Shown one piece after another: positions 27,823 through 35,718 of a DNA stretch of 64,000 nucleotides; position 1 is the first letter of the stretch, and each line of letters opens with the position of its first letter. Below the pieces are notes generated by a model that was not told the DNA's origin, searched no databases, and was given only the letters and a program-made list of their open reading frames with translations. A program made the translations under genes and the position numbers. This stretch comes from an uncultured Rhodospirillales bacterium (lineage in GTDB: Bacteria; Pseudomonadota; Alphaproteobacteria; ATCC43930; CGMCC-115725). The DNA is taken from positions 1 to 64,000 of the forward strand of contig CAIJOA010000030.1 of assembly GCA_903822185.1 (NCBI GenBank), in the 5' to 3' direction.

Positions 27823-28851
27823 TTATTTTAGTGGTCCGAGAACCTTGTTCGCCTCGGCGACAAAGCGGTTGTCGTAGCTTGCCGCCAGATTGAATTCTTT
27901 TTCCTTGCCCTTCAATTGCGGATCGAAAGTGGCGAGGTCGTTCAATGTCGTGCGGGCCGAAGCCTCATCCATCATGCCGTCCTCAGTGAAGACGCCACGC
28001 TTGCGGTCGTTCAGCAAGGTGTTCGTATAGATTTCTATGTCGTTGCCGTAATAGCTCTTCGGCACCAGCTTAACGAGTTCCTCGACCGGCGTGTGCTGCA
28101 TGAAGCGGAAGGCGCGAATGATCTGGGTCATGAAGGCCTGCACGACTTGCGGCTTGGCTTTCAGCACCGACTCCTTGCTGAGGATCGCGCTGCCGGCGAA
28201 GGGGCCGTTATAAAGATATTTGATGCCTTCCTCGGTGCGCGTATCGACGACGGGAACGATGTCGCCTTCCTGGACCAGCTTTGAGATCACCGGGTCGGCG
28301 TGCGAAATCCCGTCGAGCCGGCCCGATTTCATCGCCGCGACGGCACCCGCGCCCGCGCCGACGCCGACGACCGATACGTCGTCGTGCCCAAGCCCTTCCT
28401 TAGCCAGCAGCAGCAACAGCGCAACGTCGAGGGCGGAGCCCGGCGCGATCACGCCCATACGCAGCCCCTTGAGGTCCTTGGGCGACTTGTATTTCGCCGC
28501 GAGATCTTTGGTAAGGCCGATCACTGCGCCATAGGTGTGGTTGATCAGCATGATGTTGATGATGTCGAGCCCCTTGGGCCGCAGATGCAGCACATGCTCG
28601 TAGGAACCGAAGCCGATCTCGGCGCTGCCGCCGATCAGGGCTTCCGCCATCTTGGTGCCGCTGACGACATCGTTGATCTGGACGTTGAGCCCGGCTTCTT
28701 TGAAATAACCGAGTTCCTCGGCCAGCGTTACCGGAAGGTAAGCGACGATGTTGCGGCCACCGACCGCAACCGACAAATCCTCGGCCGCATGCGCCGCGCC
28801 GGCGCCGGCAATCAGGGCGAAACCGAAAACAAAACCGCGCAATCCGAACAT
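27823..28851 (-). CDS. NitT/TauT-type ABC substrate-binding protein (orphan)
   Basis: A 342-residue binding protein of the SsuA/NMT1 family with a signal peptide of about 22 residues ending in AHA. GGRNIVAYLPVTLAEELGYFKEAGL is the usual start of the mature domain. No cognate TauB-like ATPase or TauC-like permease lies nearby, although two such binding proteins are in tandem. The second domain contains ALDVALLLLLAKEGL, VVGVGAGAGAVAAMKSGRLDGISHADP, normal for the family. Confidence 0.84.
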   Translation of the reverse strand: MFGLRGFVFGFALIAGAGAAHAAEDLSVAVGGRNIVAYLPVTLAEELGYFKEAGLNVQINDVVSGTKMAEALIGGSAEIGFGSYEHVLHLRPKGLDIINIMLINHTYGAVIGLTKDLAAKYKSPKDLKGLRMGVIAPGSALDVALLLLLAKEGLGHDDVSVVGVGAGAGAVAAMKSGRLDGISHADPVISKLVQEGDIVPVVDTRTEEGIKYLYNGPFAGSAILSKESVLKAKPQVVQAFMTQIIRAFRFMQHTPVEELVKLVPKSYYGNDIEIYTNTLLNDRKRGVFTEDGMMDEASARTTLNDLATFDPQLKGKEKEFNLAASYDNRFVAEANKVLGPLK

Positions 28852-32075: not shown

Positions 32076-32164
32076 CCACGCGTCTTCCTTCTTACTGATT
32101 TTCTGTCCGCTTTCGGCAGCACCGCCGATTGCCTATCCTCGTGCGCAGATCGCAGAGGATAAGC

Positions 32165-33286
32165 ATGGGCGCGCTCGACGGTATTTTTGTGGTGGCGTTG
32201 GAACAAGCCGTGGCGGCGCCGCTGGCAAGCTGCCGGCTCGCCGATGCCGGCGCGCGCGTCATCAAAATCGAACGGCCCGAGGGGGATTTTGCCCGCGGCT
32301 ATGACCGCATTGCGCATGGCCAAAGCTCCTATTTCGTTTGGCTCAATCGCGGCAAGGAATCGATCGCGCTCGATATCAAGCAGCCGGCGGATCACGCGCT
32401 GCTCGACCGCATGATCGCCCGCGCCGATGTCTTCATCCAGAACCTCGCCCCCGGCGCGGCGGCGCGCGCGGGTTTCGACCCCTCCGCCTTGCGCGAACGT
32501 TTTCCGCGCCTCGTCACTTGCTCGATCAGCGGCTATGGCGAGGCGGGGCCCTATCGCGACATGAAGGCCTATGATCTGCTGATCCAGGGCGAAACCGGGC
32601 TGGCCTCCATCACCGGCGCGCCCGAAGCGCCGGGCCGGGTCGGCGTGTCGGTGTCCGATATCGCCGCCGGGCTCAATGCTTATGCCACGATCCTCGAGGC
32701 GCTGATCGCCCGGCAACGGAGCGGAGAGGGTGCGGCGATCGCGATCTCCCTGTTCGACGCGACGGCGGAATGGATGGCTGTGCCGCTGATCCATCAGCAA
32801 TATGGCGGCAAGGCGCCCGAGCGGGTGGGGCTGCGCCATCCCTCGATCGCGCCTTACGGGGCTTTTGAAACGGCTGACGGGAGGGCAATCATCGTCGGTA
32901 TTCAGAACGAGCGCGAATGGGAACGCTTCTGCCAGTCGGTTCTGAACCAGCCCGAACTCGCCGCCGATCCGCGCTTTGCCGGCAACGTACAGCGCGTTAG
33001 CCATCGCCCGGCGCTGGACGCGATCGTTGCCGATGAATTCCGCGCGCGGACCAGCATTGCGCTTACTGCGCTTCTAGATGCGGCTGGGATCGCTTATGGA
33101 CGGCTCAACAGCGTTGCCGACCTTTTGGACCACCCGCAATTACGCCGTGTGATGGTCCCGACAGAAGCCGAGCCGGTATCGGTTCCCGTGCCGCCCGGTT
33201 GGCCCTCCCTCCATGAGGGTGTGGGCAAGCCGATCCCCCGCTTGGGACAGCACAGCGCCGCATTGCGGCAGGAATTTGCGCTCTGA
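32165..33286 (+). CDS. CaiB/BaiF family CoA transferase
   Basis: A 373-residue class III CoA transferase, near the usual length. RLADAGARVIKIERPEGD is the family start, NRGKESIALDIK follows, and the catalytic Asp is D165 in VSVSDIAAGLNAYA. These enzymes move CoA between acyl-CoA and free acids, for example formyl-, carnitinyl- or methylmalyl-CoA. The ATG at 32165 has a GAGGATAA site; an upstream start at 32129 lacks one. No acyl-CoA enzymes adjoin it, so the acid is unknown. Confidence 0.88.
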   Translation: MGALDGIFVVALEQAVAAPLASCRLADAGARVIKIERPEGDFARGYDRIAHGQSSYFVWLNRGKESIALDIKQPADHALLDRMIARADVFIQNLAPGAAARAGFDPSALRERFPRLVTCSISGYGEAGPYRDMKAYDLLIQGETGLASITGAPEAPGRVGVSVSDIAAGLNAYATILEALIARQRSGEGAAIAISLFDATAEWMAVPLIHQQYGGKAPERVGLRHPSIAPYGAFETADGRAIIVGIQNEREWERFCQSVLNQPELAADPRFAGNVQRVSHRPALDAIVADEFRARTSIALTALLDAAGIAYGRLNSVADLLDHPQLRRVMVPTEAEPVSVPVPPGWPSLHEGVGKPIPRLGQHSAALRQEFAL

Positions 33287-33406
33287 ATAATCCGATATTA
33301 TTGCGCTGCACCATCACTGTTCTGGTGCGTTGTGGAACCCCAGAGACGAAGGATTCCCGGGTTAAGTGCTCATAAAAAAGAATTTTCCGAAAAAACGATT
33401 TTGCGG

Positions 33407-33435
33407 TTGATTTGTCAGTGATGCTGCATCATATT
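33407..33435 (+). promoter_or_regulatory. sigma-70 type promoter of the small RNA
   Basis: TTGATT (33407-33412) and CATATT (33430-33435) are separated by exactly 17 bp, within an AT-rich stretch in otherwise GC-rich DNA. The expected start of transcription is about 33441-33443. No ORF follows before the terminator at 33506. Confidence 0.55.
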
Positions 33436-33441
33436 TTGCAG

Positions 33442-33537
33442 TGCGGCATTGCTCGTCGCCCGACGACATGCCGTACGTCTTCTAGGCGTTTCCTCCCTAA
33501 ACTTAGGGCCGTGCTTTTGCACGGCCCTTTTCTTTTT
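33442..33537 (+). ncRNA. candidate small regulatory RNA with anti-Shine-Dalgarno loop (AbcR-like)
   Basis: A transcription unit of about 96 nt with a promoter and an intrinsic terminator but no plausible ORF. Visible structure is a 5' hairpin (TCGTC/GACGA, 33453-33466), then GTTT-CCTCCCT-AAAC (33488-33502), which can display the anti-Shine-Dalgarno sequence CCTCCCT in a 7-base loop, then the terminator stem. This architecture resembles alphaproteobacterial trans-acting small RNAs such as AbcR (alpha-r15), which silence ABC transporter binding-protein mRNAs; the family match is from memory and unverified. The remaining intergenic DNA (33287-33406) is AT-rich and I see no other gene in it. Confidence 0.55.
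33506..33537 (+). terminator. strong intrinsic terminator of the small RNA
   Basis: A 9-bp perfect stem GGGCCGTGC/GCACGGCCC with a TTTT loop is followed by TTTTCTTTTT (33528-33537). It is the clearest rho-independent terminator in the window and lies 220 bp past the CoA-transferase stop, too far to be only that gene's terminator. Confidence 0.85.
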
Positions 33538-33591
33538 GCGCTTCGATCTTCCCGTGAGGAAGGCGATGCGCCCCCAGATAGGCGAGAAGAG

Positions 33592-34152
33592 TCAGTCGGC
33601 TGATTGGCCCGACGCGGTGGTTCCCGTGCTCAGGGCGCGCTGCATCAGAACGCTATCGACCCAACGGCCCAGTTTGAACCCGACCGCCGGCATCAGCCCG
33701 GCGCGCGTGAATCCCGCCTTTTGATGGAGTCCGATCGAGGGGGCATTATCGGTATCGCCGATGACCGCGACCATCTGGTGATAGCCCAGCGCCGTGCAGC
33801 GCTCGATCAGCGCCGTCAGCAGGGTCAGTCCGACACCACGGCGGGCCGTGACCTGATCGACATAGATCGAATCCTCGAGCGTGAAACGGTAAGCCGAACG
33901 GGTCCGGAAAGGCGCCGCATAGGCATAGCCGACGACCCGGTTCGCGCTGTCCGTCGCAACAAGATACGGCAACCCCGCCGATGTGACCCCGTCATGCCGT
34001 TGGGTCATCTCGGCGACCGTCGGCGGCACCTCTTCGAACGTCGCCAGCGAGGTGCGAACGTAATGCGCATAGATCGCCGTGATCGCAGGAATGTCGCCGG
34101 CAGCCGCATCGCGAACGGTGCAGGGGGCCGATACCAAAACCGGTTGGGTCAT
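33592..34152 (-). CDS. GNAT N-acetyltransferase, phosphinothricin acetyltransferase-like
   Basis: A 186-residue GNAT protein of the Pat/MnaT type. RDAAAGDIPAITAIYAHYV, the FRTRSAYRFTLEDSIYV segment and the acetyl-CoA loop ARRGVG (103-108) identify the family. Members acetylate phosphinothricin, methionine sulfone or similar amino acids. The ATG at 34152 overlaps the stop of the upstream N-formylglutamate amidohydrolase gene (ATGA). The frame runs on upstream inside that gene to 34518, without similarity. Confidence 0.86.
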   Translation of the reverse strand: MTQPVLVSAPCTVRDAAAGDIPAITAIYAHYVRTSLATFEEVPPTVAEMTQRHDGVTSAGLPYLVATDSANRVVGYAYAAPFRTRSAYRFTLEDSIYVDQVTARRGVGLTLLTALIERCTALGYHQMVAVIGDTDNAPSIGLHQKAGFTRAGLMPAVGFKLGRWVDSVLMQRALSTGTTASGQSAD

Positions 34153-35039
34153 GCCGGCCTCAGGATCGCCGGATCGATGGCCGCTAGTCGCTCGGTCAGG
34201 GAGCGCATGTCGCTGGCAAGTTGCGTGAAGAACGGTTTGCGCTCGAAACTGCGCTCGTCCATGTAGAGCCCGCGGCCGATTTCGATTTGAAGGCAATGCC
34301 GGCCTTCGCTCGGCTTGCCGTAATGCGTCGTCGTGAAGCCGCCGGCATAAGGCGTATTGCGGACGACGACATAGCCTTTGTCCGTCAAAATTTTTTGCGC
34401 CGTATCGGCGATCACCGGATCGCACGCGGTGCCGTGACAATCGCCCAGCACGATATCGATGCGGCTGCGTTGGCTGCCACGGCTGACCGGCAGGTTGGTC
34501 GAGGGCATCGAATGGCAATCGAGCAGCAGATAGAAGCCGAAGCGATCCCGCGTCGTCTCCAGCAGCCCGGACAAGGCGCGGTGATAGGGGTGATAAAGCC
34601 GCTCGATCCGTTGGGCTGCCTCGATGTAGCGAAGCTTGCGGGCATAGATTTCCTCGCCCGATGCGACGACGCGCGCGACGGTGCCAAGCCCGACCCGGAC
34701 CCGCGGCGAATGGCGATTGACGAAATCGGGCAGGGCGTCTTCGAACATCGCCGGGTCGAGCTCGTAGGGCTCGCGATTGACGTCGAGATAGGCGCGGGCG
34801 AAACGCGCCTTCAGCAGCGGCGCACCCAAGGCTGCCGCGCCGGCGAAGATTTCATCGACATAGCTGTCCTCCGACCTGCGAAGGCCGTGGGAGTCGAGAC
34901 GCGCGGCGGCAAGAAGGTCGGGTGGGTAGGTCGTGCCGCTATGGGGCGAGGCAAGCACCAGAGCAAGGGTCTGCTGTCCGTACGCGACGATATCGAGCGC
35001 AGAATCGCTCGGCGCGAGAGGTGCTACATGCCCTTCCAT
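34149..35039 (-). CDS. N-formylglutamate amidohydrolase family protein
   Basis: A 296-residue zinc hydrolase of the N-formylglutamate amidohydrolase family. ALVLASPHSGTTYP near residues 32-45 carries the first His, EDSYVDEIF follows, LLLDCHSMPS is the second metal motif, and GFTTTHYGKPSEGRHCLQIEIGR closes the site. In the Hut pathway it yields glutamate and formate, but no other hut genes are here. It is next to cpdR, an arrangement I recall from other Alphaproteobacteria, so its role may be general. Confidence 0.86.
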   Translation of the reverse strand: MEGHVAPLAPSDSALDIVAYGQQTLALVLASPHSGTTYPPDLLAAARLDSHGLRRSEDSYVDEIFAGAAALGAPLLKARFARAYLDVNREPYELDPAMFEDALPDFVNRHSPRVRVGLGTVARVVASGEEIYARKLRYIEAAQRIERLYHPYHRALSGLLETTRDRFGFYLLLDCHSMPSTNLPVSRGSQRSRIDIVLGDCHGTACDPVIADTAQKILTDKGYVVVRNTPYAGGFTTTHYGKPSEGRHCLQIEIGRGLYMDERSFERKPFFTQLASDMRSLTERLAAIDPAILRPA

Positions 35040-35166: not shown

Positions 35167-35208
35167 TGTCCTATGGCTAGGATCGTGGCGGAAATTGGCG
35201 GATCGCTC

Positions 35209-35568
35209 ATGGCCCGAATTCTTCTTGCCGAAGACGACGAAAATCTACGCTTCTTCCTCGCCCGCGCTTTGCGGCGTGCGGGGCATGAGGTCAATGATTA
35301 CGGCGACGGCGAAACCGCACTGACCTGGATGAACGAACATTCGGTCGATCTGCTGCTGGCGGACGTCGTCATGCCCGGCCTCGACGGCATCGAGCTGGCC
35401 CGCCGCGCCAGCGACATGTGGCCCCATCTACGGGTCATTTTCATCACCGGCTTTGCCGCTGTCGCCCTGCGCGAGGCGAAAGTCATGGCGCCCGAGGCAA
35501 CTGTGCTCGAGAAGCCGTTCCATCTGCGTCAATTGGTCAACGAGATCGATCGCTTTTTAGCAGCCTGA
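35209..35568 (+). CDS. cpdR: CpdR-type single-domain response regulator
   Basis: A 119-residue receiver domain with no output domain. The acidic pocket is EDD (8-10), the phosphorylation site is D52 (LLADVVMPGLDG) and the conserved Lys is in VLEKPF. The N-terminus MARILLAEDDE and the length match CpdR, which when unphosphorylated primes ClpXP for degradation of cell-cycle proteins and is controlled through the CckA-ChpT relay. The frame is open from 35173, but the CpdR family begins at the ATG at 35209. Tandem 17-bp repeats lie upstream. Confidence 0.85.
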   Translation: MARILLAEDDENLRFFLARALRRAGHEVNDYGDGETALTWMNEHSVDLLLADVVMPGLDGIELARRASDMWPHLRVIFITGFAAVALREAKVMAPEATVLEKPFHLRQLVNEIDRFLAA

Positions 35569-35643: not shown

Positions 35644-35718
35644 GGGCGCGTAGCTCAGCGGGAGAGCACTACCTTGACATGGTAGGGGTCACAGGTTCAA
35701 TCCCTGTCGCGCCCACCA
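35644..35718 (+). tRNA. tRNA-Val(GAC)
   Basis: A complete cloverleaf: acceptor GGGCGCG/CGCGCCC, D-arm GCTC/GAGC, anticodon stem CTACC/GGTAG with loop TTGACAT (anticodon GAC), T-arm ACAGG/CCTGT with loop TTCAATC, and an encoded CCA at 35716-35718. It reads valine GUC codons. It ends 13 bp before the convergent threonine ammonia-lyase gene. Confidence 0.97.

Follow-up and report, generated by a model that had tools for sequence, protein, structure and literature searches.

What does the orphan unit at positions 33407-33537 (+) of the window, a 64,000-nucleotide stretch of DNA from an uncultured Rhodospirillales bacterium, encode, and to which family does its product belong? The first-pass annotation had proposed a small RNA (sRNA) gene running from its own promoter to its own terminator and had placed the RNA among the AbcR-like riboregulators. 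Promoter, anti-Shine-Dalgarno core and terminator can all be read directly from the sequence, and the unit recurs in tens of relatives. At the sequence level, our analysis confirms a real small regulatory RNA gene, with transcription as predicted from these elements, and assigns it to a different family.

The sRNA gene and its predicted structure

The gene follows a CoA-transferase family III gene on the same strand (32129-33286, +; PF02515, E = 3e-105), from whose end a gap of 155 nt leads to the predicted sRNA start. Downstream, the unit is bounded at 33592 by the end of a GNAT acetyltransferase gene (33592-34155, −; PF00583/PF13420), which sits between the sRNA and the gene for FGase, an N-formylglutamate amidohydrolase (34149-35039, −; PF05013, E = 3.6e-73) and the syntenic landmark of alpha-r8 RNAs. 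Near the FGase gene, we also observed genes for a stand-alone response regulator receiver protein (35173-35568, +) and tRNA-Val(GAC) (35644-35718, +).

The putative promoter (33407-33435, +) consists of TTGATT at 33407-33412, a 17-nt spacer, and CATATT at 33430-33435. These hexamers are present as first described, but a strict consensus scan returned no promoter (0 found), as the 8 of 12 consensus matches of this one are too weak for it. The support for the promoter therefore lies in its conservation: a −35 TTG with a spacing of 16-18 nt to the hexamer is kept in 36 of 40 homologues, a count that is somewhat optimistic because the best placement was picked for each sequence. Spacing from this promoter gives the start of a predicted transcript of ~97 nt (33441-33537, +), close to the 96 nt originally estimated. 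The prediction is backed by an Rfam match (RF00519, below) and by the fold of 33437-33537, which reaches −46.3 kcal/mol compared to a mean of −25.6 for dinucleotide shuffles (z = −7.5; none of 200 shuffles reached it). Relatives differ by indels in the loops of the 5′ hairpin, which argues against coding, in agreement with the original description of a transcript without an ORF and in disfavor of a short-ORF reading of the region.

The first reading had missed a strong 5′ hairpin at 33441-33476 (+), in which 33441-33449 pairs with 33468-33476 and is supplemented by an apical stem. This hairpin lies mostly upstream of the Rfam model, and it is treated as unpaired in the 77 positions of RF00519. 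Across 25 sequences, three of its pairs have changed on both sides, and 89% of the cells are paired. Next comes a weak hairpin (33476-33490, +), the first of the RF00519 model, placed by the cmscan alignment and the consensus fold; it lacks covariation because it is mostly invariant. The core that follows on the same strand reads GTTT (33488-33491), CCTCCCT (33492-33498), and AAAC (33499-33502). Its anti-Shine-Dalgarno sequence is present as proposed, but the GTTT/AAAC stem said to hold it as a loop has weak support: the minimum free energy fold pairs this region otherwise, the 10-mer of published alpha-r8 RNAs is single-stranded (PMC12559287), and the GTTT side never varies, leaving no covariation to count. 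The intrinsic terminator (33505-33537, +) comprises a stem at 33505-33528 with a TTTT loop and then TTTCTTTTT, the U-rich tail of which is the likely predicted contact for Hfq. We counted 10 pairs in the stem where 9 had been claimed, and two of them show changes on both sides.

Covariation in relatives, which had been suggested as a check, was found in the 5′ stem and the terminator. Over 25 aligned relatives, the two elements together show 93.6% standard pairs and 26 double-changed cells, compared to a shuffle mean of 7.8, and their covariation lies above that of 500 of 500 shuffles. Relatedness can inflate such a shuffle test; in slid controls, which retain the relatedness, the paired share falls to 28-54%. 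Judged from these alignments, the conserved, covarying 5′ hairpin is a modest novelty, a lineage-typical 5′ extension lacking in the Rfam model, and it suggests that RF00519 is too short for this lineage.

Assignment to the alpha-r8 family

A whole-window Rfam scan yielded two matches over cut-off, a tRNA and RF00519 (suhB/mmgR, alpha-r8). The latter, at 33470-33542, scores 61.8 bits against a cut-off of 41 (E = 2.5e-10) and covers the full model length, 1-77. The first-pass annotation had recommended the AbcR, alpha-r14, and alpha-r15 models; the alpha-r15 model for AbcR (RF02345) fails here, reaching 23 bits where 40 are required. This locus is nevertheless the best place for that model in the genome, and a search with it found no AbcR over cut-off anywhere in the genome.

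In published alpha-r8 RNAs, a weak hairpin precedes an exposed 10-mer, UUUCCUCCCU, a terminator is present, and one copy usually adjoins an FGase gene, the convergent partner at most published alpha-r8 loci (PMC12559287). All three traits are found at the window locus. The 10-mer TTTCCTCCCT (33489-33498, +), the presumptive seed, is identical to the published core and invariant across 25 aligned relatives, and the gene is convergent with the FGase gene ~0.6 kb away, with one acetyltransferase gene between them, the classic alpha-r8 position. AbcR RNAs, by comparison, have two CU-rich anti-Shine-Dalgarno motifs in three stem-loops (PMC7143759), whereas 33441-33537 contains one; the gene is single rather than tandem, and its flanks are CoA-transferase and GNAT/FGase genes rather than lsrB/vtlR. 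The sRNA is a member of the known alpha-r8 (MmgR/SuhB/SisA) family, and the AbcR-like assignment does not hold.

The arrangement is widespread among relatives. RF00519 scores over cut-off in 49 of the 61 related genomes searched, often in several copies, and this genome has four: the window copy and L002 (G000:C28:185940), L003 (C28:307734), and L004 (C11:304130). Among the FGase loci of relatives, 78 have no less than 300 nt of downstream sequence. In at least 45 of these, the sRNA follows FGase in convergent orientation, presence being called from an exact match to the nonamer GTTTCCTCC on the strand opposite FGase and up to 2.5 kb downstream of it. For 17 of the other loci, Rfam adds two adjacent sRNAs, and a tRNA gene lies within ~0.9 kb upstream of FGase in 15 of these 17. 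The FGase linkage is missing in many more distant relatives: among the FGase loci that lack the exact nonamer (L062-L092), many of those from more distant relatives have a tRNA gene just upstream of FGase and no sRNA over the Rfam cut-off beside it. The closest named record is a metagenome-assembled genome labeled Rhodospirillales, with an FGase 76% identical to the one in the window.

A candidate PhaR-type operator and predicted targets

We identified a candidate PhaR (AniA)-type operator at 33431-33451 (+), with its core, TGCAGTGCG, at 33437-33445 between the −10 and the predicted +1, so that the 5′ arm of the 5′ hairpin overlaps it. This core conforms to YGCRNYGCR, the core of the published PhaR motif, and the whole site matches 20 of 21 positions of the motif from S. 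meliloti, WNWD2NYGCRNYGCRNH2WNW (PMC12542648). In Sinorhizobium, PhaR binds and represses the mmgR promoter (PMC12542648); by analogy with this precedent, the operator before the window sRNA resembles a PhaR site and may bind PhaR. A second candidate, ~135 nt upstream (33296-33316, +), matches the motif at 21 of 21 positions, and one relative (L039) shows a similar core at the equivalent position. Genome-wide, the degenerate pattern is not enriched (41 occurrences compared to 34 for a reversed control), so each site is just a candidate, we set the pattern aside as regulon evidence, and the 33296-33316 match possibly arose by chance.

When homologues of all kinds are taken together, 52 of 69 have a PhaR core 40-75 nt before the seed, compared to 3-5% of random windows, and in most FGase-linked homologues it is correctly placed just after the −10. 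The 5′ region has z < −2 in 92% of the homologues that carry the operator core (n = 52) but in 44% of the others (n = 18). In three loci (L095, L112, and L115), the core lies instead between the −35 and −10 and thus apart from the hairpin, which points to retention of the operator in its own right. Genes for PhaR, Hfq, and a phasin are present in the genome, the phasin gene with a PhaR-like box upstream. By eye, L002 and L003 are without the PhaR-like core of the window copy, and L004 carries GTGCAGTGCGG at a comparable position.

The genome contains 58 sites of the form GGGAGGAA-N1-14-ATG. Nine of the 28 ORFs that we examined behind such sites, each of at least 60 aa, encode substrate-binding proteins (six NMT1, one TctC, one Peripla_BP_6, and one SBP_bac_11), compared to 0 of 10 in a control set with another Shine-Dalgarno sequence, AAGGAGAA. 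The enrichment has a one-sided p of ~0.04, calculated by hand with a small control and a high NMT1 base rate. Other predicted targets are MFS and TctA transporters and Rieske, UbiD, and amidohydrolase enzymes. Many transporter mRNAs would pair with the seed over 8-12 contiguous bases; that of the Peripla_BP_6 protein (L153) has 12 contiguous bases complementary to the sRNA, AGGGAGGAAACG.

The 4.27-Mb genome encodes at least 150 NMT1-type (NMT1/THI5-like, PF09084) substrate-binding proteins, so the base rate for such targets is high, and GGGAGGAA is also plainly a strong ribosome-binding site. For these reasons, a transporter regulon under the sRNA is a reasonable prediction from sequence and not a result; the role in transporter regulation suggested by the first-pass annotation is plausible, with weak statistical support. 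Since many substrate-binding proteins and catabolic genes are among the predicted targets, the sRNA may act like AbcR while not being AbcR. NMT1 genes were also seen in arrays on one strand, with roughly a dozen members or more, ~1-kb spacing, and a median identity of ~43% among members (L220 and L221, at G000 C48:85904-102989 and C48:110232-121333). NMT1-type proteins were noted at window 28081-28737 (−) as well.

Proposed mechanism and alternatives

Taken together, we consider it very probable that the FGase-linked alpha-r8 copy is a trans-acting sRNA, controlled by PhaR and dependent on Hfq, that masks GGGAGGAA ribosome-binding sites. A sigma-70-type promoter would start the ~97-nt transcript near 33441. 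With its operator over the start region, PhaR (AniA) would probably repress the gene, and titration of PhaR by PHB granules, as in S. meliloti, would release it. Along the RNA, the stable 5′ hairpin would be followed by the weak hairpin, the exposed UUUCCUCCCU seed, and a terminator whose U-tail would bind Hfq. Pairing of the seed with GGGAGGAA-type Shine-Dalgarno sequences would keep ribosomes from entering, chiefly at transcripts that encode substrate-binding proteins, other transporters, and catabolic enzymes. What we observed are the sequence and family, the synteny, the conserved structure, the operator match, the genes for PhaR and Hfq, and the ribosome-binding sites complementary to the sRNA; from these, we infer transcription, PhaR and Hfq binding, and the actual targets.

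Two alternatives concern the nature of the element. It might be no independent gene but a mere terminator or 3′ UTR element belonging to the preceding CoA-transferase gene, which shares its strand and ends at 33286, and the empty strict promoter scan would fit such an origin; the 155-nt gap and the conserved −35/−10 pair plus operator that immediately precede the RNA in 36 of 40 homologues make it highly improbable. Equally improbable is a true AbcR/alpha-r15 RNA, as originally proposed. Its appeal lies in the CU-rich motif of the same kind, the partial homology of alpha-r15 RNAs to SuhB (PMC7143759), the preference of the alpha-r15 model for this locus within the genome, and the many substrate-binding proteins among the predicted targets. 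The model scores (for RF02345, 23 bits where the gathering score is 40; for RF00519, 61.8 bits), the one motif instead of two, the absence of a tandem arrangement, and the FGase rather than lsrB/vtlR synteny decide against it.

A further alternative accepts the alpha-r8 RNA but has it act mainly on PHB storage through the phasin mRNA, as suspected for MmgR, instead of on transporters. The PhaR-type operator and the PhaR and phasin genes are consistent with this, as is the PHB over-accumulation that follows loss of the MmgR 10-mer, according to work cited in PMC12559287. The ribosome-binding region of the phasin mRNA pairs poorly with the seed, in contrast to the 8-12 contiguous bases of many transporter mRNAs; at −21.1 kcal/mol, the phasin mRNA falls within the range of controls, and we rejected it as a target for want of special complementarity. 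We regard a main action on PHB storage as possible but unlikely and favor the broader masking of ribosome-binding sites.

This masking mechanism has precedents among characterized relatives. MmgR of Sinorhizobium meliloti (alpha-r8, RF00519) likewise has the core 10-mer, the preceding weak hairpin, the terminator, and a PhaR/AniA promoter site; it is 77 nt long and, going by the Rfam model, starts just before the weak hairpin, whereas the window sRNA has ~20-30 nt more, forming the strong 5′ hairpin. SisA-D of Caulobacter crescentus (alpha-r8) are likewise dispersed sibling copies, one of them FGase-linked, with the identical 10-mer and hfq in the genome, and SisA with Hfq base-pairs mRNAs via the 10-mer (PMC12559287). 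The SisA-D promoters are reported to have no common motif, whereas the window copy and most FGase-linked homologues have a PhaR-type core. Unlike for SisA-D, no CrfA-like sponge was found in this genome by exact search for TAGGGAGGAAA: besides the sRNA's own complement, the search returned two matches, each located at a GGGAGGAA ribosome-binding site, leaving no sponge candidate at that stringency. SuhB of Sphingopyxis granuli TFA, which shares its Rfam name with the window sRNA, is an Hfq-dependent translation repressor tied to carbon status and PHB; with Hfq it represses thnR translation (PMC6563040), and it measures 61 nt compared to the ~97 nt predicted here. With AbcR1/AbcR2 (alpha-r15), the window sRNA has in common the anti-Shine-Dalgarno seed and predicted targets that include substrate-binding proteins; it differs in failing the alpha-r15 model, in its single motif, and in its neighborhood.

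The alpha-r8 family is already well known in alphaproteobacteria as blocking mRNA translation, and these results add another well-supported member, with its operator and synteny, from a lineage that has received little study. More speculatively, this lineage's alpha-r8 RNA, with an extra conserved 5′ hairpin whose 5′ arm doubles as the PhaR operator, could serve as a PHB-status-controlled switch for a very large set (at least 150) of NMT1-type substrate-binding proteins, an idea that we hold to be rather improbable. The locus points to a connection between PHB status and transporter expression that can be tested and that has so far been drawn from two or three model species.
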